Below are positions 1-42,761 of a stretch of DNA of 42,761 nt, one piece after another. The position numbers were made by a program, and so were the translations under genes. Source of the DNA: Saccoglossus kowalevskii (Eukaryota > Hemichordata > Enteropneusta > Harrimaniidae); assembly GCF_000003605.2 (NCBI RefSeq), contig NW_003133723.1, positions 1 through 42,761 on the forward strand, in the 5' to 3' direction. The notes beneath the pieces were generated by a model. The model searched no databases. It was not told the origin of the DNA and saw only the letters and a list, made by a program, of their open reading frames with translations. Numbering within the stretch: position 1 is the first letter of the stretch; every line of letters begins with the position of its first letter.

Positions 1-729
1 TGGTTAGTACTTGCATCTGTGACAACCTGAGAAAACCAGCGGGTGACACATTTTTGAGTTTTTGCAGTCTGCACCTATTTGGTCCAATCTGTTAACACAG
101 CGTGCAAAGTTCTCCAAAGCGATTCCTAAGTTGCTAGATGTGTTTGTTTATTTGACCTAAGCTGTTGTTATATCGAACCATGCAGTTATAAAGTATGAAA
201 AATGACTAAAATCCATTTGAAACCTCTCATGTTAGCAGAATGTCATATGAGCCGGCCGTAAAATGTGCAAATACATCTTAAAAAATGTAAAAAGAGATTG
301 AAAAGTGTGTTTATTTGCGTGTATATTCCCTCTAAGTCATTTCATAAAGAACCCCACAGTTAAATTTAGAACAAAATTATGTAAAAGTCTAAAACAGCTA
401 TTTATGTAGGCACATTGTACCTCTACCCAAGCGCAAAGTGACTAACAAAGTGCTTACAAAGTTGTCAAAATCCCGTGGAAATTTGGCAGATTTACATGGA
501 AATGTTACCTATTCTGTTACATTATCGAATCCAGTTGTTAAAAGTTCGCGAAAGTGAATGAATATGTCATAAAAGGCCGTTTGAATATCGTAGTGGCTAT
601 CGAAGGATGTAGAATTTTTAAACATTTCCATACATAAAATGGACGCCAATTACAATAATGTTTAAATGACCCCGATAGATGACTGGTCAGATGATCGACC
701 GATAATGGAAGTAAAAGTTCAATCGGTCG
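1..729 (+). repeat. Monomer U1, A-type
   Basis: 5S relic 1-55; its 5' part lies outside the window. Box C is altered to gcatctgtgac. The T-run is T5 at 51-55. The spacer has gtgcaaatacatctt and cataaaatggacgcc. Confidence 0.93.
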
Positions 730-1461
730 TGGTTTAGTACTTGCATGGGTGACAACCTGAGAAAACCCAGCGGGGTGAAATTTTTTTGAGTTTTTGCAGT
801 CTGCACCTATTTGGTTCAAGCTGTTAAAACAGCGTGCAAAGTCTCCAAAGCGATTCCAAAGTTGGTTGACTTGTTTGATTATTTGAAATAAGTTGTTGTT
901 ATATCGAACTCTGCAGTTATAAAGTATGAAAAATGATTAAAATCCATTTGAAACCTCCCATGTTAGCAGACTGTCATATGAGCCGGCCGTAAAATGAACA
1001 AACACATACTAAAAATGTTAAAAGCGATTGAAACGTTGGTGGATTTGCGTGTATATTCCCCCTGCGTCATTTCATATAGAACCCCGCAGTTAAATTTAGA
1101 ACAAAATTATGTAAATGTCTAAAACAGCTATTTATGTTGGCACATTGTACCACTACCCAAGCGCAAAGTGATTAACAAAATGCTTACAAATTTGTGAAAA
1201 GCTTGTGCAAAGTTGGCAGATTTACATGGAAATGTTACCTATTCTGTTACATTATCGAGTCCAGTTGTTAAAAGTTCGCGAAAGTGAATGAATATGTCAT
1301 AAAAGGCCGTTTGAATATCGTAATTGCCCTTGAAGGATGTAGAATTATTAAACATTTCCATACATTAAATGACCGCGAATTACGATAATTTTAAAAAAAT
1401 GACCCTGATAGATGAGAGGTCAGGTGATCGACCGATAAAAGAAGTAAAGTTCAATCTGTCG
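730..1461 (+). repeat. Monomer U2, A-start/C-body
   Basis: 5S relic 667-787, with an extra T (ggtttagtac) and T7 at 781-787. The body is C-type (gaacaaacacatactaaaa) with an unusual gtaattgcccttgaagg. Confidence 0.93.
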
Positions 1462-2186
1462 TGGTTAGTACTTGCATGGGAGACAACCTGAAAAAACCAG
1501 TGGGTGAATTATTTTGAAAGAGTTTTTGCAGTCTGCACCTATTTGATCCAAGCTGTTAAAACAGCGTGCAATGTTCTCCAAAGCGATCCAAAGTTGCTAG
1601 ATTTGTTGTTTATTTGACCTAAGTTGTTGTATATTGAACCCTGCAGTTATAAAGTATGAAAAATGACTAGAATCCATATGAAACCTCCCATGTTAGCAGA
1701 CTGTCATATGAGCCGGCCGTAAAATGAACAAACACATACTAAAAATGTTAAAAGCGATTGAAAAGTTGGTGGATTTGCGTGTATATTCCCCCTAAGTCAT
1801 TTCATATAGAACCCCGCAGTTAAATTTAGAACAAAATTATGTAAAAGTCTAAAACAGCTATTTATGTTGGCACATTGTACCACTACCCAAGCGCAAAGTG
1901 ATTAAAAAGCGCTTACAAAGTTGTGAAAAGCTTGTGAAAGTTGGCAGATTTACATGGAAATGTTACGTATTCTGTTACATTAACGAATCCAGTTGTTAAA
2001 AGTTCGCGAAAAAGAATGAATATGTCATAAAAGGCCGTTTGAATATCGTAGTGGCTCTCGAAGGATGTAGAATTTTTAAACATTTCCATACATTAAATGA
2101 CCGCCAATTACGATAATTTATAAATGACCCCAATAGATGAGTGGTCAGATGATCGACCGATAATGTAAGTATAGTTCAATCAGTCG
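1462..2186 (+). repeat. Monomer U3, C-type
   Basis: 5S relic 1399-1517. The terminator region is damaged (tgaattattttgaaag), leaving only T4. The 3' third carries the rare variant attaaaaagcgcttac and gaccccaatag. Confidence 0.93.
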
Positions 2187-2913
2187 TGGTTAGTACTTGC
2201 ATTGGTGACAACCTGAGAAAACCAGCGGATGACACTTTTTTGAGTTTTTGCAGTCTGCACCTATTTGGTCCAAGCTGTTAAAACAGCGTGCAAAGTCACC
2301 AAAGCGATTCCAAAGTTGCTAGATTTGTTTTCTTTATTTGACATAAGTGTTGTTATATCGAACCCTGCAGTTATAATGTATGAAAAATGACTAAAATGCA
2401 TTTGAAACCTCCCATGTTAGCAGAATGTCATATGAGCCGGCCGTAAAATGTGCAAATACATCTTAAAAATGTTAAAAGCGATTGAAAAGTTGGTGGATTT
2501 GCGTGTATATTCCCCCTATGTCATTTCATATAGAACCCCGGAGTTAAATTTAGAACAAAACTATGTAAAAGTTTAAAACAGCTATTTATGTGGGCACATT
2601 GTACCACTACCCAAGCGCAAAGTGATTAACAAAGTGCTTTACAAAGTTGTCAAAATCTTGTGAAAAGTTGGTAGATTTACATGGAAATGTTACGTATTCT
2701 GTTACATTATCGAGTCCAGTTGTTAAAAATTCGCGAAAGTGAATGAATATGTCTTAAAAGGCCGTTTGAATATCGTAGTGGCCCTCGAAGGATGTAGAAT
2801 TTTTAAACATTTCCATACATTAAATGGCCACCAATTACGATAATTTTGAAATGACCCTGATACGCGAGTGGTCAGGTGATCGACTGATAATAGAAGTAAA
2901 GTTCAATCGGTCG
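2187..2913 (+). repeat. Monomer U4, A/C mosaic, rare variant
   Basis: 5S relic 2124-2242. Rare bases ttggtgac, gcggatgac, aagtcaccaaag, gttttctttatttgacat and ataatgtatg are shared with U44. The middle is A-type (tgtgcaaatac); the end is cattaaatggccacc. Confidence 0.93.
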
Positions 2914-8719: not shown

Positions 8720-9448
8720 TGGTTAGTACTTGCATGGGAGACAACCAGAGAAAACCAGCGGTTGACACTTTTTTTGAGTTTTTGCCGTCTGCACCTATTT
8801 TGTCCAAGCTGTTAAAACAGCGTGCAAAGTTCTCCAAAGCGTTTCCAAAGTTGCTAGATTTGTTTGTTTATTTGACCTAAGTTATTGTTATATCAAACCA
8901 TGCAGTTGTAAAGTATGAAAAATGACTAAAATTCATTTGAAACCTTCCATGTTAGCAGACTGCCATATGAGCCGGCCGTAAAATGAACAAACACATACTG
9001 AAAATGTTAAAAGCGATTGAAAAGTTGGTGGATTTGCGTTTATATTCCCCCTAAGTCATTTCATATAGAACCCCGCAGTTAAATTTAGAACAAAATTATG
9101 TAAAAGTCAAAAAACAGCTATTTATGTTGGCACATTGTTCCACTACCCAAGCGCAAAGTGATTAACAAAGTGCTTACAAAGTTGTGAAAAGCTTGTGCAA
9201 AGTTGGTAGATTTGCACGGAAATGTTACCTATTCTGTTACATTATCGAGTCCAGTTGTTAAAAGTTCGCGAAAGTGAATGAATATGTTATAAAAGGCCCT
9301 TTGAATATCGCAGTGGCCCTCGAAGGATGTAGAATTTTTAAACATTTCCATCAATTACATGGCCGCCAATAACAATAATTTTTAAACGACCCTGATAGAT
9401 GAGTGGTCAGGTGAACGACCAATAATGGAAGTAAAGATCAATCGGTCG
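8720..9448 (+). repeat. Monomer U13, B-type
   Basis: 5S relic 8657-8775, with aaccagagaaaacc. That variant, gactgccatatg and cattgttccac are all shared with U29, sixteen monomers away. Confidence 0.93.
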
Positions 9449-10181
9449 TGGTTAGTACTTGCATGGGAGACAACCTTAGAAAACCAGCGGTTGACACTTT
9501 TTTTGAGTTTTTGCCGTCTGCACCTATTTGGTCCATGCTGTTAAAACAGCGTGCAAAGTTCTCCAAAGCGTTTCCAAAGTTGCTAGATTTGTTTGTTTAT
9601 TTGACCTAAGTTGTTGTTATATCGAACCATGCAGTTGTAAAGTATGAAAAATGACTAAAATTCATTTGAAACCTTCCATGTTAGCAGACTGTCATATGAG
9701 CCGGCCGTAAAATGAACAAACACATACTGAAAATGTTAAAAGCGATTGAAAAGTTGGTGGATTTGCGTTTATATTCCCCCTAAGTCATTTCATGTAGAAC
9801 CCCGCAGTTAAATTTAGAACAAAATTATGTAAAAGTCAAAAACAGCTATTTATGTAGGCACATTGTACCACTACCCAAGCTCAAAGTGATTAACAAAGTG
9901 CTTACAAAGTTGTGAAAAGCTTTGCAAAGTTGGTAGATTTGCATGGAAATGTTACCTATTCTGTTACATTATCGAGTCCAGTTGTTAAAAGTTCGCGAAA
10001 GTGAATGAATATGTTATTAAAGGCTCTTTGAATATCGCAGTGGCCCCTCAAAGGATGTAGAATTTTTAAACATTTCCATCATTTACATTGGCCACCAAGT
10101 AACAATAAATTTTAAACGACCCCTGATAAGATGAGTGGTCAAGTGATTGACCAATTAATAGAAGTAAAGATCAATCGTTCA
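9449..10181 (+). repeat. Monomer U14, B-type, indel-rich end
   Basis: 5S relic 9386-9504. It is 733 bp long owing to single-base insertions in 10040-10160 (cattggcc, aagtaac, gacccctgataag). aagctttgcaaag is shared with U25 and U26. Confidence 0.93.
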
Positions 10182-10909
10182 TGGTTAGTACTTGCATGGG
10201 AGACAACCTTAGAAAACCAGCGGTTGACACTTTTTTGAGTTTTTGCCGTCTGCACCTATTTGGTCCATGCTGTTAAAACAGCGTGCAAAGTTCTCCAAAG
10301 CGTTTCCAAAGTTGCTAGATTTGTTTGTTTATTTGACCTAAGTTGTTGTTATATCGAACCATGCAGTTGTAAAGTATGAAAAATGACTAAAATTCATTTG
10401 AAACCTTCTATGTTAGCAGACTGTCATATGAGCCGGCCGTAAAATGAACAAACACATATTGAAAATGTTAAAAGCGATTGAAAAGTTGGTGGATGTGCGT
10501 TTATATTCCCTCTAAGTCATTTCATGTCGAACCCCGCAGTTAAATTTAGAACAAAATTTTGTAAAAGTCAAAAACAGCTATTTATGTTGGCACATTGTAC
10601 CACTACCCAAGCGCAAATTGATTAACAAAGTGCTTACAAAGTTGTGAAAAGCTTGTGCAAAGTTGGTAGATTTGCATGAAAAATGTTACCTATTCTGTTA
10701 CATTATCGAGTCCAGTTGTTAAAAGTTCGCGAAAGTGAATGAATATGTTATTAAAGGCCCTTTGAATATCGCAGTGGCCCTCGAAGGATGTAGAATTTTT
10801 AAACATTTCCATCAATTACATGACCGCCAATAACAATAATTTTTAAACGACCCTGATAGATGAGTGGTCAGGTGATCGACCAATAATAGAAGTAAAGATC
10901 AATCGGTCG
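10182..10909 (+). repeat. Monomer U15, B-type
   Basis: 5S relic 10119-10237, with the noisy U14 end forming its 5' part and gttcatggttag at the join. The spacer has gttattaaagg in place of TATAAAAGG. Confidence 0.93.
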
Positions 10910-10965
10910 TGGTTAGTACTTGCATGGGAGACAACCTGAGAAAACCAGCGGTTGACACTTTTTTT
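10847..10965 (+). pseudogene. Degenerate 5S rRNA gene, representative B-type copy (U16)
   Basis: B-type pattern: ACGACCCTGA matches 9 of 10 bases of 5S 13-22. AATAATAGAAG covers 41-51 with G41 and G47 lost. Positions 69-91 match 22 of 23, the one change being G82 to C. CCTG, GAA and ACC follow at the correct spacing. A T7 run at 10959-10965 lies where the 5S 3' end and Pol III terminator belong. Compared with A-type copies, box C is better kept and the 5' half is worse. Confidence 0.87.
10959..10965 (+). terminator. Pol III-type T-run after 5S relic (representative)
   Basis: T7 directly follows gttgacac at the 5S 3' end, and a second T5 follows after GAG. The same paired T-run occurs in nearly every monomer, T6-T7 in B and C copies and mostly T5 in A copies. 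Pol III stops at T4 or longer on the non-template strand, which matches the + orientation of the relic. Function is inferred. Confidence 0.6.
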
Positions 10966-10997
10966 GAGTTTTTGCCGTCTGCACCTATTTGGTCCAT

Positions 10998-11011
10998 GCT
11001 GTTAAAACAGC
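10998..11011. repeat. Short hairpin downstream of 5S terminator (representative)
   Basis: gctgttaaaacagc is a 6-bp stem with an AA loop, about 33 bp after the T-run. It is present in B and C monomers. A-type monomers usually read gctgttaacacagc, a 5-bp stem with a 4-base loop. Confidence 0.5.
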
Positions 11012-11639
11012 GTGCAAAGTTCTCCAAAGCGTTTCCAAAGTTGCTAGATTTGTTTGTTTATTTGACCTAAGTTGTTGTTATATCGAACCATGCAGTTGTA
11101 AAGTATGAAAAATGACTAAAATTCATTTGAAACCCTCCATGTTAGCAGACTGTCATATGAGCCGGCCGTAAAATGAACAAACACATACTGAAAATGTTAA
11201 AAGCGATTGAAAAGTTGGTGGATTTTGCGTTTATATTCCCCCTAAGTCATTTCATGTAGAACCCCGCAGTTAAATTTAAAACAAAATTATGTAAAAGTCA
11301 AAAACAGCTATTTATGTTGGCACATTGTACCACTACCCAAGCTCAAAGTGATTAACAAAGTGCTTACAAAGTTGTGAAAAGCTTGTGCAAAGTTGGTAGA
11401 TTTGCATGGAAATGTTACCTATTCTGTTACATTATCGAGTCCAGTTGTTAAAAGTTCGCGAAAGTGAATGAATATGTTATTAAAGGCCCTTTGAATATCG
11501 CAGTGGCCCTCGAAGGATGTAGAATTTTTAAACATTTCCATCAATTACATGGCCGCCAATAAAAATAATTTTTTTAACGACCCTGATAGATGAGTTTTCA
11601 GGTGATCGACCAATAATAGAAGTAAAGATCAATCGGTCG

Positions 11640-12366
11640 TGGTTAGTACTTGCATGGGAGACAATCTGAGAAAACCAGCGGTTGACACTTTTTTTGAGTT
11701 TTTGCCGTCTGTACCTATTTTGTCCAAGCTGTTAAAACAGCGTGCAAAGTTCTCCAAAGCGTTTCCAAAGTTGCTAGATTTGTTTGTTTATTTGACCTAA
11801 GTTGTTGTTATATCGAACCATGCATTTATAAAGTATGAAAAATGACTAAAATCCATTTGTAACCTCCCATGTTAGCAGACTGTCACATGAGCCGGCCGTA
11901 AAATGTACAAATACATCCTAAAATGTTAAAAGTGATTGAAAAGATGGTGGATTTGCGTGTATATTCCCCATAAGTCATTTCATATAGACCCCCGCATTTA
12001 AATTTAGAACAAAATTATGTAAAAGTCTAAAAAGCCTATTTATGTTGGCACATTGTACCACTACCCAAGCGCAAAACGATTAACAAAGTGCTTACAAAGT
12101 TGTGAAAAGCTTGTGCAAAGTTGGTAGATTTACATAGAAATGTTACCTATTCTGTCACATTATCGAGTCCAGTTGTTAAAGGTTTGCGAAAGTGAATGAC
12201 TATGTCATAAAAAGCCGGTTGAATATCGTAGTGGCCCTCGAAGGATGTAGAATTTTTAAACATTTCCATAAATTAAGTGGCCGCCAATAACGATAATTTT
12301 TAAACGAACCTTATAGATAAGTGGTCAGGTGATCGACCGATAATGGAAGAAAAGTTCAATAGGTCG
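11640..12366 (+). repeat. Monomer U17, B-to-D hybrid
   Basis: 5S relic 11577-11695, with acaatctgag. It is B-type to ~11825, then D-type (tgtacaaatacatcc, gtgattgaaaagatgg, gaaccttatag). Confidence 0.92.
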
Positions 12367-12570
12367 TGGTTAGTACTTGCATGGAAGACAACCTGACAAA
12401 ACCAGCGGGTGACACTTTTTTGAGTTTTTGCAGCCCGCACCTATTTGGTCCAAGCTGTTAAAACAGCGTGCAGAGTTCTCCAAAGCGATTCCAAAGTTGC
12501 TAGATTTGTTTGTTTATTTGACCTAAGTTGTTGTTATATCGAACCATGCAGTTATAAAGTATGAAAAATG
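11830..12570 (+). repeat. D-type tract within block B1 (U17/U18)
   Basis: Markers are tgtacaaatacatcc, gtgattgaaaagatgg, gaaccttatagataag, ggaagaaaagttcaatagg and gcatggaagacaacc, on an otherwise A/C-like background (gcgattcc, tccatttg). Flanking sequence is B-type. Part of this tract recurs at 37060-37380 and part at 24845-25045. Confidence 0.75.
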
Positions 12571-13087
12571 ACTAAAATTCATTTGAAACCTTCCATGTTA
12601 GCAGACTGTCATATGAGCGCGGCCGTAAAATGAACAAACACATATTGAAAATGTTAAAAGCGATTGAAAAGTTGGTGGATTTGCGTTTATATTCCCCCTA
12701 AGTCATTTCATATAGAAGTTAAATTTAGAACAAAATTATGTAAAAGTCAAAAACAGCTATTTATGTTGGCACATTGTACCACTACCCAAGCGCAAAGTGA
12801 TTAACAAAGTGCTTACAAAGTTGTGAAAAGCTTGTGCAAAGTTGGTAGATTTGCATGGAAATGTTACCTATTCTGTTACATTATCGAGTCCAGTTGTTAA
12901 AAGTTCGCGAAAGTGAATGAATATGTTATAAAAGGCCCTCTGAATATCGCAGTGGCCCTCGAATGATGTAGAATTTTTAAACATTTCCATCAATTACATG
13001 GCCGCCAATAACAATAATTTTTAAACGACCCTGATAGATGAGTGGTCAGGTGATCGACCAATAATAGAAGTAAAGATCAATCGGTCG
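12367..13087 (+). repeat. Monomer U18, D-to-B hybrid, 7-bp deletion
   Basis: 5S relic 12304-12422, with gcatggaagac and gcagcccgcac. It is B-type from ~12575. tatagaagtt at 12711 lacks ccccgca, a deletion shared only with U20. gagcgcggccg is an oddity. Confidence 0.93.
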
Positions 13088-29081: not shown

Positions 29082-29806
29082 TGGTTAGTACTTGCATGGG
29101 TGGCAACCTGAAAAAACCAGCGGGTGACACAATTTTGAGTTTTTGCAGTCTGCACCTATTTGGTCCAATCTGTTAACACAGCGTGCAAAGTTCTCCAAAG
29201 CGATTCCAACGTTGCTAGATTTGTTTGTTTATTTGTCCTAAGTTGTTGTTATATCGAACCATGCAGTTATAAAGTTTGAAAAATGATTAAATCCATTTGA
29301 AACCTCTCATGTTAGCAGAATGTCACATGAGCCGGCCGTAAAATGTGCAAATACATCTTAAAAATGTTAAAAGCGATTGAAAAGTTGGTGGATTTGTGTG
29401 TATATTCCCTCTAAGTCATTTCTTATAGAACCCCGCAGTTAAAATTAGAACAAAATTATGTAAAAGACTAAAACAGCTATTTATGTTGGCACATTGTACC
29501 ACTACCCAAGCGCAAAGTGATTAAAAATGTGCTTACAAAGTTGTGAAAAGCTTGTGCAAAGTTGGCAGATTTACATGGAAATGTTACCTATTCTGTTACA
29601 TTATCGAATCCAGTTGTTAAAAGTTCGCGAAAGTGAATGAATATGTCATAAAAAGCCGTTTGAATATCGTAGTGGCTATCGAAGGATGTAGAATGTTTAA
29701 ACATTTCATACATAAAATGGCTGCCAATTACGATAAATTTTAAATGACCCTGATAGATGAGTGGTCAGATGATCGACCGATAATGGAAGAAAAGTTCAAT
29801 CGGTCG
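29082..29806 (+). repeat. Monomer U41, A-type
   Basis: 5S relic 29019-29137, with gggtggcaacctg. The T-run is reduced to T4 (cacaattttgag). Confidence 0.93.
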
Positions 29807-30533
29807 TGGTTAGTACTTGCATGGGTGACAACATGAGAAAACCAGCGGGTGACACATTTTTGAGTTTTTGCAGTCTGCACATATTTGGTCCAAGCTGTTA
29901 ACACAGCGTGCAAAGTTCTCCAAAGCGATTCCAAAGTTGCTAGATTTGATTGTTTGTTTGACCTAAGTTGTTGTTATATCGAACCATGTAGTTATAAAGT
30001 ATGAAAAATGACTAAAATCCATTTGAAACCTCTCATGTTTGCAGAATGTCATATGAGCCGGCCGTAAAATGTGCAAATACATCTTAAAAATGTAAAAAGC
30101 GATTGAAAAGTTGTTGAATTTGCGTGTATATTCCCCCTATGTCATTTCATATAGAACCCCGCAGTTAAATTTAGAACAAAATTATGTAAAAGTTTAAAAA
30201 AGGTATTTATGTTGGCACATTGTACCACTACCCAAGCGCAAAGTGATTAAACAAGTGCTTACAAAGTTGTGAAAAGCTTGTGCAAAGTTGGCAGATTTAC
30301 ATGGAAATGTTACGTATTCTGTTACATTATCGAATCCAGTTGTTAAAAATTCGCGAAAGTGAATGAATATGTCATAAAAGGCCGTTTGAATATCGTAGTG
30401 GCTATCGAAGGATGTAGAATTTTTAAACATTTCCATACATAAAATGGACGCCAATTACAATAATTTTTAAATGATCCTGATAGATGAGTGGTCAGATGAT
30501 TGACCGATAATGGAAGTGAAGTTCAATCGGTCG
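29807..30533 (+). repeat. Monomer U42, A-type
   Basis: 5S relic 29744-29862, with acaacatgag. gatttgattgtttgtttg is a local variant. Confidence 0.93.
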
Positions 30534-31258
30534 TGGTTAGTACTTGCATGGGTGACAACATGAGAAAACCAGCGAGTGACACATTTTTGAGTTTTTGCAG
30601 TCTGCACCTATTTGGTCCAAGCTGTTAAAACAGCGTGCAAAGTTCTCCAAAGCGATTCCAAAGTTGCTAGATTTGTTTGTTTATTTGACCTAAGTTGTTG
30701 TTATATCGAACCCTGCAGTTATAAAGTATGAAAAATGACTAAAATCCATTTGAAACCTCCCATGTTAGCAGAATGTCATATGAACCGGCCGTAAAATATA
30801 CAAATACATCCTAAAAATGTTAAATGCGATTGAAAAGTTGGTGGATTTGCGTGTATATTCCCCCTAAGTCATTTCATATAGAACCCCGCAGTTAAATTTA
30901 GAACAAAATTATGTAAAAGTCTAAAACAGCTATTTATGTTGGCACATTGTACCACTACCCAAGCGCAAAGTGATTAAAAAGCGCTTACAAAGTTGTGAAA
31001 AGCTTGTGAAAGTTGGCAGATTTACATGGAAATGTTACGTATTCTGTTACATTAACGAATCCAGTTGTTAAAAGTTCGCAAAAAAGAATGAATATGTCAT
31101 AAAAGGCCGTTTGAATATCGTAGTGGCTCTCGAAGGATGTAGAATTTTTAAACATTTCCATACATTAAATGACCGCCAATTACGATAATTTATAAATGAC
31201 CCCAATAGATGAGTGGTCAGATGATCGACCGATAATGTAAGTATAGTTCAATCAGTCG
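30534..31258 (+). repeat. Monomer U43, A-to-C rare variant
   Basis: 5S relic 30471-30589. The 3' half carries the rare set seen in U3 and U7 (ttaaaaagcgcttac, cattaacgaatcc, gaccccaatag). Confidence 0.93.
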
Positions 31259-31964
31259 TGGTTAGTACTTGCATTGGTGACAACCTGAGAAAACCAGCGG
31301 ATGACACTTTTTTGAGTTTTTGCAGTCTGCACCTATTTGGTCCAATCTGTTAAAACAGCGTGCAAAGTCACCAAAGCGATTCCAAAGTTGCTAGATTTGT
31401 TTTCTTTATTTGACATAAGTTGTTGTTATATCGAACCCTGCAGTTATAATGTATGAAAAATGACTAAAATGCATTTGAAACCTCCCATGTTAGCAGAATG
31501 TCATATGAGCCGGCCGTAAAATAAACAAACACATACTAAAAATGTTAAAAGCGATTGAAAAGTTGGTGGATTTGCGTGTATATTCTCCCTAAGTCATTTC
31601 ATATAGAACCCCGCAGTTAAATTTAGAACAAAATTTATGTAAAAGTCTAAACAGCTGTTTATGTTGGCACATTGCACCACTACCCAAGCGCAAAGTGATT
31701 AAACAAGTGCTTAAAAAGTTGTGAAAAGCTTGTGCAAAGTTGGCAGATTTACATGGAAATGTTACGTATTCTGTTACATTATCGAATCCAGTTGTTAAAA
31801 GTTCGCGAAAGTGAATGAATATGTCATAAAAAGCCGTTTGAATATCGTAGTGGCTATCGAAGGATGTAGAATGTTTAAACATTTCCATACATAAAATGGC
31901 TGCCAATTACGATTCTGAGTGGTCAGATGATTGACCGATAATGGAAGTAAAGTTCAATCGGTCG
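31259..31964 (+). repeat. Monomer U44, rare variant, 706 bp
   Basis: 5S relic 31196-31314. It starts with the U4 variant set (gcggatgac, aagtcaccaaag, gttttctttatttgac). About 21 bp are lost near 31914. Confidence 0.93.
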
Positions 31965-32020
31965 TGGTTAGTACTTGCATGGGTGACGCCATGAGAAAAC
32001 CAGCGGGTGACACATTTTTG
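31914..32020 (+). pseudogene. 5S rRNA relic lacking its 5' part (U45)
   Basis: At 31913-31917 gattct joins directly to gagtggtc, so about 21 bp including the CCCTGA motif (5S ~17-22) are lost. This accounts for the 706-bp spacing from U44 to U45. The 3' part also has an altered sequence, gggtgacgccatgag. Confidence 0.82.
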
Positions 32021-32696
32021 AGTTTTTGCAGTCTGCACATATTTGGTCCAAGCTGTTAACACAGCGTGCAAAGTTCTCCAAAGCGATTCCAAAGTTGCTA
32101 GATTTGTTTGTTTATTTGACCTAAGTTGTTGTTGTTATATCGAACCATGTAGTTATAAAGTATGAAAAATGACTAAAATCCATTTGAAACATCTCATGTT
32201 AGCAGAATGTCATATGAGCCGGCCGTAAAATGTGCAAATACATCTTTAAAATGTTAAAAGCGATTGAAAAGTTGGTGGATTTGCGTGTATATTCTCCCTA
32301 AGTCATTTCATATAGAACCCCGCAGTTAAATTTAGAACAAAATTATGTAAAAGTGTAAAACAGCTATTTATGTTGGCACATTGTCCCACTACCCAAGCGC
32401 AAAGTGATTAACAAAGTGCTTACAAAGTTGTCAAAATCTTGTGCAAATTTGGGCAGATTTACATGGAAATGTTATCCATTCTGTTACATTATCGAATCCA
32501 GTTGTTAAAAGTTCGCGAAAGTGAATGAATATGTCATAAAAGGCCCGTTTGAATATCGTAGTGGCTATCGAAGGATGTAGAATGTTTAAACATTTCCATA
32601 CATAAAATGGCTGCCAATTACGACAATTTTCAAATGACCCTGATAGATGAGTGGTCAGATGATCGACCGATAATGGAAGTAAAGTTCAATCGGTCG
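31965..32696 (+). repeat. Monomer U45, A-type
   Basis: 5S relic 31914-32020, 5'-shortened. It has an extra gtt (gttgttgttgttata) near 32125. gtgtaaaacagc and cattgtcccac are shared with U12. Confidence 0.93.
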
Positions 32697-33423
32697 TGGT
32701 TAGTACTTGCATGGGTGACAACCTCAGAAAACCAGCGGGTGACCCAATTTTGAGTTTTTGCAGTCTGCACCTATTTGGTCCAAGCCGTTAACACAGCGTG
32801 CAAAGTTCTCCAAAGCGATTCCATAGTTGCTAGATTTGTTTGTTTATTAGACCTAAGTTGTTGTTATATCGAACCATGCAGTTATAAAGTATGAAAAATG
32901 ACTAAAATCCATTTGAAACCTCTCATGTTAGCAGAATGTCACATGAGCCGGCCGTAAAATGCGCAAATACATCTTAAAAATGTTAAAAGCGATTGAAAAG
33001 TTGGTGGATTTGCGTGTATATTCTCCCTAAGTCATTTCATATAGAACCCCGCAGTTAAATTTAGAACAAAATTATGTAAAAGTTTAAAACAGCTATCTAT
33101 GTTGGCACATTGTACCACTACCCAAGCGCAAAGTGATTAACAAAGTGCTTACAAAGTTGTCAAAATCTTGTGCAAATTTCGCAGATTTACAGGGAAATGT
33201 TACCTGTTCTGTTACATTATCGAATCCAGTTGTTAAAAGTTCGCGAAAGTGAATGAATATGTCATAAAAGGCCGTTTGAATATCGTAGTGGCTATCGAAG
33301 GATGTAGAATGTTTAAACATTTCCACACATAAAATGGCTGCCAATTACGATAATTTTTAAATGACCATGATATATGAGTGGTCAGATGATCGACCGATAA
33401 TGGAAGCAAAGTTCAATCGGTCG
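32697..33423 (+). repeat. Monomer U46, A-type
   Basis: 5S relic 32634-32752, with cctcagaaaacc and gacccaattttgag (T4). The end has ttacagggaaatg and gtgatatatgag-like changes. Confidence 0.92.
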
Positions 33424-34150
33424 TGGTTAGTGCTTGCATGGGTGACAACCTGAGAAAACCAGCGGGTGACACATTTTTGAGTTTTTGCAGTCTGCACCTA
33501 TTTGGTCCAAGCTGTTAACACAGCGTGCAAAGTTCTCCAAAGCGATTGCAAAGTTGCTAGATTTGTTTGTTTATTTGTCCTAAGTTGTTGTTATATCGAA
33601 CCATGCAGTTATAAAGTATGAAAAATGACTAAAATTCATTTGAAACCTCTCATGTTAGCAGAATGTCATATGAGCCGGCCGTAAAATGCGCAAATACATT
33701 TTAAAAATGTTAAAAGCGATTGAAAAGTTGGTGGATTTGCGTGTATATTCTCCCTAAGTCATTTCATATAGAACCCCGCAGTTAAATTTAGAACAAAATT
33801 ATGTAAAAGTTTAAAACAGCTATTTATGTTGGCACATTGTACCACTACCCAAGCGCAAAGTGATTAACAAAGTGCTTACAAAGTTGTCAAAATCTTGTGC
33901 AAATTTCGCAGATTTACAGGGAAATGTTACCTATTCTGTTACATTATCGAATCCAGTTGTTAAAAGTTCGCGAAAGTGAATGAATATGTCATAAAAGGCC
34001 GTTTGAATATCGTAGTGGCTATCGAAGGATGTAGAATGTTTAAAAATTTCCATACATAAAATGGCTGCCAATTACGATTCTTTTTAAATGACCCTGATAG
34101 ATTAGTGGTCAGATGATCGACCGATAATGGAAGTAAAGATCAATCGGTCG
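33424..34150 (+). repeat. Monomer U47, A-type
   Basis: 5S relic 33361-33479, with gtgcttgcat. gcgattgcaaag and tttgtcctaag are shared with U11. Confidence 0.93.
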
Positions 34151-34431
34151 TGGTTAGTACTTGCATGGGTGACAACCTGAGAAAACCAGCGGGTGACACT
34201 TTTTTGAGTTTTTGCAGTCTGCACCTATTTGATCCAGTTGTTAAAAGTTCGCGATAGTGAATGAGTATGTCATAAAAGGCCGTTTGAATATCGTAGTGGC
34301 TATCGAAGGATGTAGAATTTTTAAACATTTCCATACATAAAATGGACGCCAATTACAATAATTTTTAAATGACCCTGATAGATGAGTGGTCAGATGATTG
34401 ACCGATAATGGATGTGAAGTTCAATCGGTCG
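34151..34431 (+). repeat. Monomer U48, truncated (281 bp)
   Basis: 5S relic 34088-34206 is complete. At 34231/34232 cacctatttg joins atccagttgttaaaag, so about 446 bp of spacer are missing. Both parent sites contain TCCA. The following relic is normal, giving two 5S relics only 281 bp apart. Confidence 0.95.
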
Positions 34432-35158
34432 TGGTTAGTACTTGCATGGGTGACAACATGAGAAAACCAGCGGGTGACACATTTTTGAGTTTTTGCAGTC
34501 TGCACCTATTTGGTCCAAGCTGTTAACACAGCGTGCAAAGTTCTCCAAAGCCATTCCAAAGTTGCTAGATTTGTTTGTTTATTTGACCTAAGTTGTTGTT
34601 ATATCGAACCATGTAGTTATAAAGTATGAAAAATGACTAAAATCCATTTGAAACCTCTCATGTTAGCAGAATGTCATATGAGCCGGCCGTAAAATGTGCA
34701 AATACATCTTAAAAATGTAAAAAGCGATTGAAAAGTTGGTGAATTTGCGTGTATATTCCCCCTATGTCATTTCATATAGAACCCCGCAGTTAAATTTAAA
34801 ACAAAATTATGTAAAAGTTTAAAACAGCTATTTATGTTGGCACATTGTACCACTACCCAAGCGCAAAGTGATTAAACAAGTGCTTACAAAGTTGTGAAAA
34901 GCTTGTGCAAAGTTGGCAGATTTACATGGAAATGTTACGTATTCTGTTACATTATCGAATCCAGTTGTTAAAAGTTCGCGAAAGTGAATGAATATGTCAT
35001 AAAAGGCCGTTTGAATATCGTAGTGGCTATCGAAGGATGTAGAATGTTTAAAAATTTCCATACATAATATGGCTGCCAATTACGATTCTTTTTAAATGAC
35101 CCTGATAGATTAGTGGTAGGATGATTGACCGATAATGGAAGTAAAGATCAATCGGTCG
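34432..35158 (+). repeat. Monomer U49, A-type
   Basis: 5S relic 34369-34487, with acaacatgag. The end carries cataatatgg and gtggtaggatg, as in U39. Confidence 0.93.
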
Positions 35159-35885
35159 TGGTTAGTACTTGCATGGGTGACAACCTGAGAAAACCAGCGG
35201 GTGACACACTTTTGAGTTTTTGCAGTCTGCACCTATTTGGTCCAAGCTGTTAACACAGCGTGCAAAGTTCTCCAAAGCGATTTTAAAGTTGCTAGATTTG
35301 TTTGTTTATTTGACCTAAGTTGTTGTTATATCGAACCATGTAGTTATAAAGTATGAAAAATGACTAAAATCTATTTGAAACCTCTCAGGTTACCAGAATG
35401 TCATATGAGCCGGCCGTAAAATGTGCAAATACATCTTAAAAATGTAAAAAGCGATTGAAAAGTTGGTGAATTTGCGTGTATATTCCCCCTATGTCATTTC
35501 ATATAGAACTCCGCAGTTAAATTTACAACAAAATTATGTAAAAGTTTAAAACAGCTATTAATGTTGGCACATTGTACCACTACCCAAGCGCAAAGTGAAT
35601 CACAAAGTGCTTACAAAGTTGTCAAAATCTAGTGCAAATTTGGCAGATTTACATGGAAATGTTACCTATTCTGTTACATTATCGAATCCAGTTGTTAAAA
35701 GTTCGCGAAAGTGAATGAATATGTCACAAAAGGCCGTTTGAATATCGTAGTGGCTATCGTAGGATGTAGAATTTTTAAACATTTCCATACATAAAATGGC
35801 CGCCAATTACGATGATTTTTAAATGACCCTGATAGATGAGTGGTCAGATGATCGACCGATAATGGAAGTAAAGTGCAATCGGTCG
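35159..35885 (+). repeat. Monomer U50, A-type
   Basis: 5S relic 35096-35214. The T-run is shortened (cacacttttgag, T4). cgattttaaag and tctcaggttacc are local changes. Confidence 0.93.
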
Positions 35886-36626
35886 TGGGTAACTCTTGCA
35901 TGGGTGACAACATGAGCAAACCAGCGGGTGACACATTTTTGAGTTTTTGCAGTCTGCACATATTTGGTCCAAGCTGTTAACACAGCGTGCAAATTTCTCC
36001 AACGCGATTCCAAAGTTGCTAGATTTGTTTGTTTATTTGACCTAAGTTGTTATTATATAGAACCATGCAGTTATTAAGTATGAAAAATGACTGAAATCCA
36101 TTTGAAACCTCTCATGTTAGCAGAATGTCATATGAGCCGGCCGTAAAACGTGCAAATACATCTTAAAATGTAAAAAGCGATTGAAAAGTTGGTGAATTTG
36201 CGTGTATATTCCCCCTATGTCATTTCATATAGAACTCCGCAGTTAAATTTACAAACAAATTATGTAAAAGTTTAAAACAGTTATTAATGTTGGCACATTG
36301 TTACGCACTACCCAAGTCGCAAAAGTGATCAACAAAGTGCTTTACAAAGTTGTCAAAAGCTTGTTGTTAATTTGGGCAGATTTACATGGAAAATGTTACG
36401 TATTTATGTTTACATTTTCGAATCCAGTTGTTAAAAGTTCGCGAAAGTGAAATGAACTATGTCATAAAAAGGCCGTTTGAAATATCGTAGTGGCTATCGA
36501 AGGATGTAGAATTTTTTAAACATTTCCATACGTAAAATGGCCGCCAATTACGATGTTTTTTAAATGACCCTGATAGATGAGTGGTCAGATGATCGACCGA
36601 TAATGGAAGTAAAGTTCAATCGGTCG
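35886..36626 (+). repeat. Monomer U51, A-type, 741 bp
   Basis: 5S relic 35823-35941, with tgggtaactc and atgagcaaacc. It has a dense insertion cluster at 36296-36520. Confidence 0.92.
36296..36520 (+). other. Cluster of single-base insertions in U51
   Basis: Many one-base expansions occur within ~225 bp, such as aagtcgcaaaagtg, gtgctttac, tttgggcag, gaaaatgtt, gtttacattttcg, gtgaaatgaac, aaaaaggcc and attttttaaac. They make U51 741 bp long. Neighbouring monomers lack these changes. The pattern looks like a low-quality consensus, though a local mutation burst cannot be excluded. Confidence 0.7.
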
Positions 36627-37333
36627 TGGGTAGTACTTGCATGGGTGACAACCTGAGAAAACCAGCGGGTTACACATTTTTGAGTGTTTGCAGTCTGCAC
36701 CTATTTGGTCCAAGCTGTTAACACAGCGTGCAAAGTTCTCCAAAGCGTTTCCAAAGTTGCTAGATTTGTTTGTTTATTTGACCTAAGTTGTTATTATATC
36801 GAACCATGCAGTCATAAAGTATGAAAAATGAATAAAATTCATTTGAAACCTCTCCTGTTTGCAGAATGTCATATGAGCCGGCCGTAAAATGTGCAAATAC
36901 ATCATAAAAATGTAAAAAGCGATTGAAAAGGTGGTCGATTTGCGTGTATATTCCTCCTATGTCATTTCATATAGAACTCCGCAGTTAAATTTACAACAAA
37001 ATTTTTTTTTTTTGATTAAAACAGGTATTTATGTTGGCACATTGTACCACTACCCAAACGCAAAATGATTAACAAAGTGCTTACAAAGTTGTGAAAAGCT
37101 TGCGCAAAGTTGGTAGATTTACATAGAAATGTTACCTATTCTGTCACATTATCGAGTCCAGTTGTTAAAAGTCTGAAAAGGCCATTTGAATATCGTAGTG
37201 GCCCTCGAAGGATGTAGAATTTTTAAACATTTCCATAAATTAAATGGCCGCCAATAACGTTAATTTTTAAACGAACCTTATAGATGAGTGGTCAGGTGAT
37301 CGACCGATAATGGAAGAAAAGTTCAATAGGTCG
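36627..37333 (+). repeat. Monomer U52, A-to-D hybrid, 707 bp
   Basis: 5S relic 36564-36682, with gcgggttacac. T12 at 37002 marks the switch. A further loss of about 25 bp at 37171 (aaaagt joined to ctgaaaagg) removes the ttcgcgaa palindrome. Confidence 0.92.
37002..37013 (+). repeat. 12-T homopolymer at the A2/D block junction
   Basis: Twelve T replace the usual attatgtaaaagttt between acaacaaaa and gattaaaacagg. The sequence is A-type before it and D-type after it. It is the longest homopolymer seen in the window. Confidence 0.9.
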
Positions 37334-38062
37334 TGGTTAGTACTTGCATGGAAGACAACCTGAGAAAACCAGCGGGTGACACTTTTTTTGAGTTTTTGTC
37401 GTCTGCACCTATTTTGTCCAAGCTGTTAAAACAGCGTGCAAAGTTCTCCAAAGCGTTTCCAAAGTTGCTAGATGTGTTTGTTTAATTCACCTAAGTTGCT
37501 GTTATATCGAACCATGCAGTTATAAAGTATGAAAAATGACTAAAATTCATTTGAAACCTTCCATGTTAGCAGACTGTCATATGAGCCAGCCGTAAAATGA
37601 ACAAACACATACTGAAAATGTTAAAAGCGATTGAAAAGTTGGTGGATTTGCGTTTATATTCCCCCTAAGTCATTTCATGTAGAACCCCGCAGTTAAATTT
37701 AGAACAAAATTATGTAAAAGTCAAAAACAGCTATTTATGTTGGCACATTGTACCACTACCCAAGCGCAAAGTGATTAACAAAGTGCTTACAAAGTTGTGA
37801 AAAGCATGTGCAAAGTTGGTAGATTTGCATGGAAATGTTACCTATTCTGTTACATTATCGAGTCCAGTTGTTAAAAGTTCGCGAAAGTGAATGAATATGT
37901 TATTAAAGGCCCTTTGAATATCGCAGTGGCCCTCGAAGGGATGTAGAATTTTTAAACATTTCCATCAATTACATGGGCCGCCAATAACATAATTTTTAAA
38001 CGACCCTGATAGATGAGTGGGTCAGGTGATCGACCAATAATAGAAGTAAAGATCATCGGTCG
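37334..38062 (+). repeat. Monomer U53, D-to-B hybrid
   Basis: 5S relic 37271-37389, with gcatggaagac as in U18. It then becomes B-type with gtcgtctgc, gtttaattcacc (37480-37491) and gagccagccg. Confidence 0.93.
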
Positions 38063-38791
38063 TGGTTAGTATTTGAATGGGAGACAACCTGAGAAAACCA
38101 GCCGTTGACACTTTTTTTGAGTTTTTGCCGTCTGCACCTATTTTGTCCAAGCTGTTAAAACAGCGTGCAAAGTTCTCCAAAGCGTTTCCAAAGTTGCTAG
38201 ATTTGTTTGTTTATTTGACCTAAGTTGTTGTTATATCGAACCATGCAGTTGTAAAGTATGAAAAATGACTAAAATTCATTTGAAACCTCCCATGTTAGCA
38301 GACTGTCATATGAGCCGGCCGTAAAATGAACAAACACATACTGAAAATGTTAAAAGCGATTGAAAAGTTGGTGGATTTGCGTTTATATTCCCCCTAAGTC
38401 ATTTCATGTAGAACCCTGCAGTTAAATTTAGAACAAAATTATGTAAAAGTCAAAAACAGCTATTTATGTTGGCACATTGTACCACTACCCAAGCGCAAAG
38501 TGATTAACAAAGTGCTTACAAAGTTGTGAAAAGCTTGAGCAAAGTTGGTAGATTTGCATGGAAATTTTACCTATTCTGTTACATTATCGAGTCCAGTTGT
38601 TAAAAGTTCGCGAAAGTGAATGAATATGTTATAAAAAGCCCTTTTAAATATCGCAGTGGCCCTCGAAGGATGTAGAATTTTTAAACATTCCATCAATTAC
38701 ATGGCCGCCAATAACAATAATTTTTAATCGACCTTGATAGATGAGTGGTCAGGTGATCGACCCAATAATAGAAGAAAAGATCATTCGGTCG
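38063..38791 (+). repeat. Monomer U54, B-type
   Basis: 5S relic 38000-38118, with gtatttgaatggg and ccagccgttgac. gtgggtcagg is a one-base insertion upstream. Confidence 0.93.
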
Positions 38792-39521
38792 TGCTTAGTA
38801 TTTGCATGGGAGACAACCTGAGAAAACCAGCGGTTGACACTTTTTTTTGAGTTTTTTGCCGTCTGCACGTATTTTGTCCAAGCTGTTAAAACAGCGTGCA
38901 AAGTTCTCCAAAGCGTTTCCAAAGTTGCTAGATTTGTTTGTTTAATTCACCTAAGTTGTTGTTATATCGAACCATGCAGTTATAAAGTATGAAAAATGAC
39001 TAAAATTCATTTGAAACCTTCCATGTTAGCAGACTGTCATATGAGCCGGCCGTAAAATGAACAAACACATACTGAAAATGTTAAAAGCGATTGAAAAGTT
39101 GGTGGATTTGCGTTTATATTCCCCTTAAGTCATTTCATGTAGAACCCCGCAGTTAAATTTAGAACAAAATTATGTAAAAGTTAAAAACAGCTATTTATGT
39201 TGGCACATTGTACCACTACCCAAGCGCAAAGTGATTAACAAAGTGCTTACAAAGTTGTGAAAAGCTTGTGCAAAGTTGGTAGATTTGCATGGAAATGTTA
39301 CCTATTCTGTTACATTATCGAGTCCAGTTGTTAAAAGTTCGCGAAAGTGAATGAATATGTTATAAAAGGCCCTTTGAATATCGCAGTGGCCCTCGAAGGA
39401 TGTAGAATTTTTAAACATTTCCATCAATTACATGGCCGCCAATAACAATAATTTTTAAACGACCCTGATAGATGAGTGGTCAGGTGATCGACCAATAATA
39501 GAAGTAAAGATCAATCGGTCG
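38792..39521 (+). repeat. Monomer U55, B-type, attcacc variant
   Basis: 5S relic 38729-38847, starting tgcttagtatttgc as in U24. T8 follows cac, and gtttaattcacc is at 38940-38951. Confidence 0.93.
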
Positions 39522-40249
39522 TGCTTAGTACTTGCATGGGAGACAACCTGAGAAAACCAGCGGTTGACACTTTTTTTGAGTTTTTGTCGTCTGCACCTAT
39601 TTTGTCCAAGCTGTTAAAACAGCGTGCAAAGTTCTCCAAAGCGTTTCCAAAGTTACTAGATTTGTTTGTTTATTTGACCTAAGTTGTTGATATATCGAAC
39701 CATGCAGTTATAAAGTATGAAAAATGACTAAAATTCATTTGAAACCTTCCATGTTAGCAGACTGTCATATGAGCCGGCCGTAAAATGAACAAACACATAC
39801 TGAAAATGTTAAAAGCGATTGAAAAGTTGGTGGATTTGCGTTTATATTCCCCCTAAGTCATTTCATGTAGAAACCCGCAGTTAAATTTAGAACAAAATTA
39901 TGTAAAAGTTAAAAACAGCTATTTATGTTGGCACATTGTACCACTACCCAAGCGCAAAGTAATTAACAAAGTGCTTACAAAGTTGTGAAAAGCTTGTGCA
40001 AAGTTGGTAGATTTGCATGGAAATGTTACCTATTCTGTTACATTATCGAGTCCAGTTGTTAAAAGTTCGCGAAAGTGAATGAATATGTTATAAAAGGCCC
40101 TTTGAATATTGCAGTGGCCCTCGAATGATGTAGAATTTTTAAACATTTCCATCAATTACATGGCCGCCAATAACAATAATTTTTAAACGACCCTGATAGA
40201 TGAGTGGTCAGGTGATCGACCAATAATAGAAGTAAAGATCAATCGGTCG
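39522..40249 (+). repeat. Monomer U56, B'-type
   Basis: 5S relic 39459-39577, with tgcttagtac. Full set of B' markers. Confidence 0.94.
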
Positions 40250-40305
40250 TGGTTAGTACTTGCATGGGAGACAACCTGAGAAAACCAGCGGTTGACACTT
40301 TTTTT
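40187..40305 (+). pseudogene. Degenerate 5S rRNA gene, B'-type copy (U57)
   Basis: The relic has the B-type sequence, with ACCCTGA, a 22/23 match to 5S 69-91 and T7 at 40299-40305. U57 and U58 are nearly identical here, so this degenerate form, not a functional 5S gene, is what has been amplified recently. Confidence 0.85.
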
Positions 40306-40977
40306 GAGTTTTTGTCGTCTGCACCTATTTTGTCCAAGCTGTTAAAACAGCGTGCAAAGTTCTCCAAAGCTTTTCCAAAGTTACTAGATTTGTTTGTTTA
40401 TTTGACCTAAGTTGTTGATATATCGAACCATGCAGTTATAAAGTATGAAAAATGACTAAAATTCATTTGAAACCTTCCATGTTAGCAGACTGTCATATGA
40501 GCCGGCCGTAAAATGAACAAACACATACTGAAAATGTTAAAAGCGATTGAAAAGTTGGTGGATTTGCGTTTATATTCCCCCTAAGTCATTTCATGTAGAA
40601 CCCCGCAGTTAAATTTAGAACAAAATTATGTAAAAGTCAAAAACAGCTATTTATGTTGGCACATTGTACCACTACCCAAGCGCAAAGTGATTAACAAAGT
40701 GCTTACAAAGTTGTGAAAAGCTTGTGCAAATTTGGTAGATTTGCATGGAAATGTTACCTATTCTGTTACATTATCGAGTCCAGTTGTTAAAAGTTCGCGA
40801 AAGTGAATGAATATGTTATAAAAGGTCCTTTAAATATCGCAGTGGCCCTCGAATGATGTAGAATTTTTAAACATTTCCATCAATTACATGGCCGCCAATA
40901 ACAATAATTTTTAAACGACCCTGATAGATGAGTGGTCAGGTGATCGACCAATAATAGAAGTAAAGATCAATCGGTCG
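40250..40977 (+). repeat. Monomer U57, B'-type
   Basis: 5S relic 40187-40305. Very similar to U56 and U58; agcttttcc is a private change. Confidence 0.94.
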
Positions 40978-41705
40978 TGGTTAGTACTTGCATGGGAGAC
41001 AACCTGAGAAAACCAGCGGTTGACACTTTTTTTGAGTTTTTGTCGTCTGCACCTATTTTGTCCAAGCTGTTAAAACAGCGTGCAAAGTTCTCCAAAGCGT
41101 TTCCAAAGTTACTAGATTTGTTTGTTTATTTGACCTAAGTTGTTGATATATCGAACCATGCAGTTATAAAGTATGAAAAATGACTAAAATTCATTTGAAA
41201 CCTTCCATGTTAGCAGACTGTCATATGAGCCGGCCGTAAAATGAACAAACACATACTGAAAATGTTAAAAGCGATTGAAAAGTTGGTGGATTTGCGTTTA
41301 TATTCCCCCTAAGTCATTTCATGTAGAACCCCGCAGTTAAATTTAGAACAAAATTATGTAAAAGTCAAAAACAGCTATTTATGTTGGCACATTGTACCAC
41401 TACCCAAGCGCAAAGTGATTAACAAAGTGCTTACAAAGTTGTGAAAAGCTTGTGCAAATTTGGTAGATTTGCATGGAAATGTTACCTATTCTGTTACATT
41501 ATCGAGTCCAGTTGTTAAAAGTTCGCGAAAGTGAATGAATATGTTATAAAAGGCCCTTTGAATATCGCAGTGGCTCTCGAATGATGTAGAATTTTTAAAC
41601 ATTTCCATCAATTACATGGCCGCCAATAACAATAATTGTTAAACGACCCTGATAGATGAGTGGTCAGGTGATCGACCAATAATAGAAGTAAAGATCAATC
41701 GGTCG
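40978..41705 (+). repeat. Monomer U58, B'-type
   Basis: 5S relic 40915-41033. gcaaatttggtag is shared with U57. The end has aataattgttaaacg, also seen at the end of U21. Confidence 0.94.
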
Positions 41706-41749
41706 TGGTTAGTACTTGCATGAGAAAACCAGCGGTTGACACTTTTTTT
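41643..41749 (+). pseudogene. 5S rRNA relic with box C deleted (U59)
   Basis: The sequence runs tggttagtacttgcat directly into gagaaaacc at 41720/41721. The ~12 bp gggagacaacct present in neighbours is missing. That removes most of the box C element bound by TFIIIA in functional 5S genes. The T-run is intact. It is the only full box C loss in the window. Confidence 0.85.
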
Positions 41750-42420
41750 GAGTTTTTGTCGTCTGCACCTATTTTGTCCAAGCTGTTAAAACAGCGTGCA
41801 AAGTTCTCCAAAGCGTTTCCAAAGTTACTAGATTTGTTTGTTTATTTGACCTAAGTTGTTGATATATCGAACCATGCAGTTATAAAGTATGAAAAATGAC
41901 TAAAATTCATTTGAAACCTTCCATGTTAGCAGACTGTCATATGAGCCGGCCGTAAAATGAACAAACACATGCTAAAAACATTAAAAGCGATTGAAAAGTT
42001 GGTGGATTTGCGTGTATATTCCGCCTATGTCATTTCATATAGAACCCCGCAATTAAATTTAGAACAAAATTATGTAAAAGTTTAAAACAGCTATTTACGT
42101 TGGTACATTGTACCTCTACCCAAGCGCAAAGTGATTAAAAAATGCTTACAAAGTTGTCAAAAGCTTGTGCAAAGTTGGCAGATTTACATGGAAATGTTAC
42201 GTATTATGTTACATTATCGAATCCAGTTGTTAAAAGTTCGCGAAAGTGAATGAATATGTCATAAAAGGCTCTTTGAATACCGTAGTGGCTATCGAAGGAT
42301 GTAGAATATTTAAACATTTCCATACATAAAATGACCGCCAATTACGATAATTTTTAAATGATCCTGATAGATGAGTGGTCAGGTGATCGACCGATAATGG
42401 AAGTAAAGTTCAATCGGTCG
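41706..42420 (+). repeat. Monomer U59, B'-to-A hybrid, box C deleted
   Basis: 5S relic 41643-41749 lacks box C. It is B' to gaacaaacacatgc (~41970), then A-type. 715 bp long. Confidence 0.93.
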
Positions 42421-42761
42421 TGGTTAGTACTTGCATGGGTGACAACCTGAGAAAACCAGCGGGTGACAATTTTTTTGAGTTTTTGCAGTCTGCACCTATT
42501 TGGTCCAAGCTGTTAACACAGCGTGCAAAGTTCTCCAAAGCGATTCCAAAGTTGCTAGATTTGTTTGTTTATTTGACCTAAGTTGTTGTTATATCGAACC
42601 ATGCAGTTATAAAGTATGAAAAATGACTAAAATCCATTTGAAACCTCTCATGTTAGCAGAATGTCATATAAGCCGCCCGTAAAATGTGCAAATACATCTT
42701 AAAAATGTTAAAAGAGATTGAAAAGTTTGTGGATTTGTGCGTATATTCCCTCTAAGTCATT
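41970..42761 (+). repeat. Block A3: return to A-type (U59 end, U60)
   Basis: After catgctaaaaacattaaaag the sequence has gcgtgtatattcc, gtttaaaacagc, ggctatcgaagg, cataaaatgaccgcc and, in U60, gggtgacaacc and gtgcaaatacatctt. These are A-type markers. The array continues past the end of the window. Confidence 0.85.
42421..42761 (+). repeat. Monomer U60, A-type, cut by window end
   Basis: 5S relic 42358-42476. The usual gagccggccg is aagccgcccg. 341 bp are visible. Confidence 0.93.

Follow-up and report, generated by a model that had tools for sequence, protein, structure and literature searches.

Contig C2554 of the Saccoglossus kowalevskii genome (NW_003133723.1; 42,761 bp, all of which we refer to as the window, in an assembly of 572,110,611 bases in 4830 contigs) is a satellite array from end to end. 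Its repeat unit is a dead 5S ribosomal RNA (rRNA) gene with its upstream flank, followed by three old satellite-like subrepeats. Comparison with related arrays leads us to favour, as the probable explanation, a satellite formed from an old 5S rRNA gene and a spacer of three ~174-bp subrepeats, in which a core of the gene has been kept as a TFIIIA site. The monomers were counted with a 37-mer, which recovered 58 copies with at most 12 mismatches, on the + strand only, and two more copies (at 4355 and 41706) are damaged. The array and the start of the motif TGGTTAG (5S position 69) in each copy are listed below, together with the reference monomer to which the coordinates of all further features refer.

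1..42761, + strand: satellite array, 60 head-to-tail copies of a ~728-bp monomer, with 59 spacings of mostly 721-733 bp
TGGTTAG, copies 1-12, + strand: 1, 731, 1462, 2187, 2914, 3628, 4355 (damaged), 5082, 5811, 6537, 7264, 7992
TGGTTAG, copies 13-24, + strand: 8720, 9449, 10182, 10910, 11640, 12367, 13088, 13816, 14537, 15265, 15993, 16721
TGGTTAG, copies 25-36, + strand: 17448, 18177, 18905, 19626, 20354, 21083, 21811, 22539, 23271, 23998, 24726, 25451
TGGTTAG, copies 37-48, + strand: 26174, 26901, 27629, 28355, 29082, 29807, 30534, 31259, 31965, 32697, 33424, 34151
TGGTTAG, copies 49-60, + strand: 34432, 35159, 35886, 36627, 37334, 38063, 38792, 39522, 40250, 40978, 41706 (damaged), 42421
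10835..11564, + strand: reference monomer, A type

The 57 complete monomers have a mean pairwise identity of 91.3% (82.6-99.6%) and a consensus of 728 bp. Neighbouring monomers are closest, with an identity of 93.8% at lag 1 that declines to 90.4% at lag 24, and a higher-order repeat was rejected because this profile has no clear peak or period. Two monomer types are distinguished by GGGAGAC (A type, 34/57) and GGGTGAC (T type, 22/57), with a gap in the remaining monomer. The types are arranged in blocks: both occur as far as 7992, followed by A from 8720 to 25451, T from 26174 to 36627, A from 37334 to 40978, and T at 42421. A partial unit of 281 bp at 34151-34432, which Tandem Repeats Finder lists as a repeat of two copies, is the product of local unequal exchange, and the copy at 41706 has a short deletion within the core that joins TTGCATG to AGAAAACC.

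The preliminary description of this DNA had proposed that every monomer carries a degenerate 5S rRNA gene, and we took the 5S gene of the same genome as our reference. The Rfam 5S family RF00001 gives 47 scored matches to that genome at 105-113 bits (from 18,217 first-look candidates), and these true genes form arrays of their own, with units of ~1139 bp (C3485) and ~1579 bp (C2212, C3801). The A-type consensus aligns to the own 5S gene without gaps over gene positions 21-106.

10862..10947, + strand: degenerate 5S segment, own-gene positions 21-106, ungapped, 64/86 matches in the A-type consensus

Within this segment, 29/30 positions are identical over 62-91. Apart from copy 1, which is cut by the window edge, 59 of the 60 copies could be scored over the same 86 positions, and all of them lie above background with 37-65 matches (median 62); the best non-5S place in the window, on either strand, reaches 36/86, so the weakest true copy is barely above it. 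Judged by this alignment, the ancestor of the segment was a 5S gene resembling that of the same genome. The own gene reads TTGCATGGG, with C at position 82, where human 5S reads TTGGATGGG; human and Drosophila 5S both have G at this position. The C is common to all 11 satellite families sampled, several of which were found by patterns that include it.

An alignment with animal 5S above shuffled controls, which had been put forward as a check, was indeed obtained: in local alignments the human and Drosophila 5S references each scored 61, the highest scores among 3000 dinucleotide shuffles being 31 and 33. For the 5' half of 5S alone, the Drosophila score was reached by 1/5000 shuffles, which is significant, and the human score by 381/5000, which is not. 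A relaxed Rfam search had also been proposed at the outset. At E up to 10, RF00001 was the sole family matched, on the + strand and at the 5S place, with starts 50 bp before the core TGGTTAG in 8/9 matches and 66 bp before it in the other; all nine matches are below the cut-off, and RF00001 at its gathering threshold (38 bits) gave 0 matches over the window. The best match has 25.3 bits and E 0.44 over all 4227 Rfam families, which by simple division corresponds to about 1e-4 for one family named beforehand. The T-run reported at the 3' end is present, as a run of at least five T within columns 106-145, in 57/57 aligned monomers (the consensus stretch has two runs, of which the longest was taken). 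A CCCTGA motif had been placed near position 17, and here the description fails, as the own gene lacks CCCTGA there and positions 1-20 match at 4/20 only. Given the alignment with the own gene and the copy scores above background, the degenerate 5S gene is otherwise upheld. The same applies to the view that no copy looks functional as 5S, as none comes near the Rfam cut-off and the fold is lost in the two window copies folded.

The window array belongs to a satellite superfamily of the same genome. An exact 28-mer of the window core occurs at 118 places. The 23-bp core has 3460 exact occurrences genome-wide and 9003 when position 77 may be A or T and at most two mismatches are allowed, with 0 for the reversed pattern in either case; both counts include the true 5S genes (at least 47) and a 216-bp family. 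The second family, fam2 (first 30 kb of contig C1534), consists of 31 units of 957 bp that are 97% alike. Compared with the window family (fam1), its 5S segment is 81% alike and its spacer 70% alike over 537 columns, or 76% over ungapped columns; none of the 479 windows of 30 columns in the fam1/fam2 spacer comparison reaches the 28/30 of the core, the best being 27. The third family, fam3, is represented by one copy in contig C3898, inverted beside a short window-type array. At C3898:281450-285064 the short array meets the inverted fam3 piece head-on, inside a 642-kb contig. Further arrays have units of ~943 and ~941 bp, which are related, and of ~216 bp, which is separate. The 216-bp unit (3 copies read, C242:5100-5700) is a 5S gene that is truncated at its 5' end and far better preserved, with a spacer not shared with the others, matching the own gene at 23/28 positions over 21-48 and at 14-15/15 over 92-106. 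As most of the gene is kept and the spacer matches no other family compared, the 216-bp family looks younger and separate.

In the families sampled, the positions corresponding to a type 1 RNA polymerase III (Pol III) promoter are far better conserved than the rest of the gene, as measured against the own 5S sequence. The published limits of the 5S promoter are 50-64 for the A-box, 67-72 for the intermediate element (IE) and 82-92 for the C-box (PMC5075647). By sequence, all three elements are found in the monomer at 5S spacing, the A-box partially:

10903..10932, + strand: conserved core, 5S positions 62-91, 29/30 identical to the own 5S gene in the A-type consensus
10891..10905, + strand: A-box remnant (50-64; limits from PMC5075647), AGT.AAG and TCG kept across the superfamily, middle lost
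10908..10913, + strand: IE (67-72; limits from PMC5075647)
10923..10933, + strand: C-box (82-92; limits from PMC5075647), 82-91 kept, 92 changed
10959..10965 (end approximate), + strand: T-run near the 5S terminator place

Across the 11 families, identity to the own gene amounts to 95.8% over positions 62-91, 99.1% over the C-box part 82-91 and 93.9% over the IE, as compared with 39% over 21-48 and 52% over 92-106 in the flanks. Position by position, the A-box start (49-56) matches in 11, 11, 11, 11, 2, 11, 10 and 10 of the 11 families, and positions 58-61 are lost, with matches in 4, 1, 0 and 1. The same unevenness is seen in single families: fam2 and fam3 are identical to the own gene at 29/30 and 30/30 positions over 62-91, match it at 13/28 each over 21-48, and at 9/15 and 7/15, respectively, over 92-106. 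Permutation gave p values of 0.005 (fam1A), 0.02 (fam1T), 0.002 (fam2) and 0/20000 (fam3), jointly 5e-5. Downstream of the segment, the first T-run of at least four lies at about 114-125 in 12/12 consensus sequences or copies (fam1 counted as two types), with such runs in 7% (fam1) and 27% (fam2) of 44-bp spacer windows as a control. According to folding predictions, the rRNA fold has been lost in the three satellite segments folded, with z scores of -1.10 and 0.07 for two window copies and -0.07 for the third segment, compared to -2.95 for the own 5S.

The spacer consists of three diverged ~174-bp subrepeats in consensus columns 118-650, which were detected by self-alignment (score 103 vs a maximum of 78 in 200 shuffles).

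10952..11126 (approximate), + strand: spacer subrepeat 1, consensus columns 118-292
11127..11300 (approximate), + strand: spacer subrepeat 2, consensus columns 293-466
11301..11484 (approximate), + strand: spacer subrepeat 3, consensus columns 467-650

The subrepeats were rejected as older 5S copies, with best spacer scores of 15 and 20 vs shuffle means of 19 and 21 (stiffer gap costs in the shuffles). An origin of the monomer spacer from a true 5S spacer was likewise ruled out, because outside the gene the fam1 and fam2 units have no match at E 0.1 to the 1579-bp and 1139-bp true 5S units, with the exception of two 16-18-bp fam2 matches at E 0.053. Between the true units of ~1579 bp (C2212) and ~1139 bp (C3485), a match of 24 bp is all that the spacers share beyond the first 130 bp. 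A second conserved spot, AACCCCGCAGTTAAAT, lies in the satellite spacer at consensus columns ~423-438; it is common to the spacers of several families and occurs at 2680 places.

In order to rationalise the uneven decay, we consider that the core may have been retained because TFIIIA still binds it, with fingers 1-6 gripping the IE and C-box. These are the elements that TFIIIA grips more strongly (PMC12409998). The monomers could then act as docking sites for TFIIIA/TFIIIC and perhaps be transcribed by Pol III as short units (about 120 nt), and docking might gather the arrays near 5S genes or the nucleolus and make it easier for them to stay silent, spread or persist. Plausible, and held more tentatively, is a broader proposal in which the superfamily lives on a borrowed 5S promoter, each monomer serving either to dock TFIIIA or as a very small Pol III unit complete with terminator. 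The rRNA body would be free to decay, and selection, or better amplification of promoter-keeping units, would preserve the promoter while the family spacers drift by ~15-33%. Docking might anchor the arrays at 5S genes or at the nucleolus in a manner analogous to a mammalian 119-bp 5S insert, which in E14 embryonic stem cells raised nucleolar association and lowered the linked reporter, and to a subset of mammalian 5S pseudogenes that are also nucleolus-associated (PMC3261910).

Several points weigh against retention of the core for TFIIIA, beginning with the way in which the families were found. The exact core led to C324, C389, C6 and C203, whose core scores are thereby inflated, and a 28-mer of the window family led to fam2, so that part of the contrast between core and flank is built in. 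Each array entered the comparison with a single reading. Members were therefore sought by the 16-bp spacer motif described above. In a sample of 10 places in 6 contigs, the 5S segment was present at 8, with core identities (of 23) of 22, 22 and 21 in C275, 22 and 21 in C74, 22 and 21 in C124, and 19 in C58. C74 and C275 are absent from the exact-core list and C124 appears there once, all three having a one-base variant. The five families found without the core (C275, C74, C124 and C58 by the spacer motif, fam3 as a neighbour) show 94.0% identity in 62-91 vs 45.4% elsewhere in 21-106, a contrast reached by 0/20000 shuffles. This p value serves as a guide only, because the permutation treats positions as independent and the families share ancestry. 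On the other side, two of the six contigs sampled by the spacer motif (C62 and C261) lack the 5S segment where it would be expected, and the copy in C58, which is isolated, keeps 19/23 of the core only. In addition, the 11 families are related, some of them closely (C324 and C389 are 84% alike), and thus do not amount to 11 independent tests.

The variation within families adds to these reservations. In the window, the core is as variable as the spacer, with 73 deviations vs a mean of 65.7 in other 23-column windows, and 409/661 such windows vary as little as the core or less. Exact cores account for 15/59 in the window, 5/19 in C115 and 8/31 in C883; C4371, unlike these three window-family arrays, has a majority (17/23). 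Since the core of its own family is now as variable as the spacer, the window array may be on its way out. The fam2 core has 0 deviations in 30 aligned units and one change in the 31st copy, and 19/890 fam2 windows are equally invariant. Finally, a change of A to T at position 77 is common to C275 (957-bp type) and to C74 and C124 (943-bp type), and occurs once at C111:360, where the spacing suggests the 216-bp family; this sharing across families suggests that the core is exchanged between them.

Because the window core is as variable as the spacer and the position-77 T crosses families, we give some weight to the main alternative, possible though doubtful, of a passive 5S-derived satellite. 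The captured gene would have lost its function, conversion or unequal exchange with true 5S genes or among families would copy the core, and the promoter would be idle, gene conversion being the chief process invoked. The apparent movement of the core between C275, C74, C124 and C111:360 fits this account, as does the lack of special core constraint within the window family, but what has been kept corresponds to the promoter elements and ends sharply at 91/92. Furthermore, the A-box start at 49-56 is kept across the lost positions 58-61, a gap that a single tract copied from 5S genes would not leave in nearly all families, and the families share states outside the core that differ from the own gene. 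An origin from a mobile element, either a 5S-derived short interspersed element (SINE) or a Cassandra-like element with a 5S piece in its long terminal repeat (LTR), which later formed tandem arrays, is improbable. Cassandra does carry 5S-like sequence in its LTRs and is reported to form long tandem arrays, some SINEs resemble 5S rRNA (PMC7215508, PMC10886601), and small clusters are found inside the large contigs C3898, C2715 and C6. However, cluster edges fall at different places of the unit (columns 372 and 417 in C3898, 638 and 148 in C2715, and 235 in C1087), so there are no fixed unit ends in these contigs, and the T-run after the 5S piece lies near the gene's own terminator place, which is unexpected of a SINE body. 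That the copies are working divergent 5S genes is very unlikely: the promoter core and T-run are present, but the best match has 25.3 bits, below the cut-off of 38 bits and the 105-113 bits of true genes, the fold is lost in the two window copies folded, and neither end of the gene can be recognised in the consensus. A chance resemblance within an A+T-rich satellite, already called unlikely in the preliminary description, has a negligible probability, for although the Rfam matches fall under the gathering score, it is refuted by the shuffles (61 vs maxima of 31 and 33), the background of other places and the own 5S gene (29/30 over 62-91), with 0 reversed patterns vs 9003.

With its head-to-tail array and a segment homologous to, yet distinct from, the host 5S gene, the window array joins the known 5S-derived satellites 5SHindIII, PcP190 and PLsatB; new here are several families in one genome, long units, and the retention of mainly the promoter and terminator. 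PcP190 of hyloid frogs likewise goes back to 5S rDNA; it combines a conserved 5S-like region with a variable one, occurs in many types and is about 70% similar to true 5S (PMC11675491, PMC7806164, PMC4201667). Its unit is ~190 bp with a 120-bp conserved region, whereas the units here are ~728-957 bp and mainly promoter pieces persist. PcP190 proper is excluded by unit length (~728 vs ~190 bp). PcP190 is transcribed in two frogs (PMC11675491), and its role is called not established in the parts of the PcP190 literature consulted; none of the terms internal control, box A, box C, promoter and polymerase III appears in the main text of PMC11675491. The tandem 5SHindIII-DNA of Hoplias malabaricus, centromeric by fluorescence in situ hybridisation (FISH), similarly has a 95-bp 5S-like segment (PMC2713275), but in a 360-bp unit whose remainder is similar to the true 5S spacer, where the spacer studied here matches neither true 5S spacer. 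PLsatB of Plantago lagopus, likened by description, is another 5S rDNA-derived satellite (PMC11202950, PMC7806164), on a plant B chromosome according to the title of the original paper. In 5S/TfSat of Tribolium freemani, 5S alternates with a satellite-like tandem spacer and truncated 5S is present, but most 5S copies are full length (32/113 truncated; PMC11202950), in contrast to the satellite 5S here, which is dead as rRNA, and to the true 5S genes here, which lie in separate arrays with other spacers. An oyster satellitome study mentions 5S rDNA as a FISH control only, in the parts consulted (PMC8268682), and no satellite superfamily keeping mainly the type 1 promoter turned up in the open-licence literature surveyed, as far as the consulted parts extend.

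Several diverged families in one genome provide a natural deletion scan, in which positions of the rRNA structure are lost and promoter positions stay. The uneven decay points to TFIIIA/TFIIIC or Pol III as a testable reason for the persistence of 5S pieces in satellites, and hints at a possible route by which satellites could enlist a transcription factor to position themselves in the nucleus or to amplify.

Searches of the window found no transfer RNA genes and no phage similarity, and exact window patterns were found in neither the viral nor the prokaryote collections. Elsewhere in the assembly, the mitochondrial contig C4830 carries nad1 and cox2 in one orientation and, between them, cox1 in the opposite one. 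A lancelet host, which the mitochondrial proteins had suggested, is not supported by the gene orders given in PMC2034537. In the genetic code of this contig, TGA presumably stands for Trp, and AGA is best taken as Ser.

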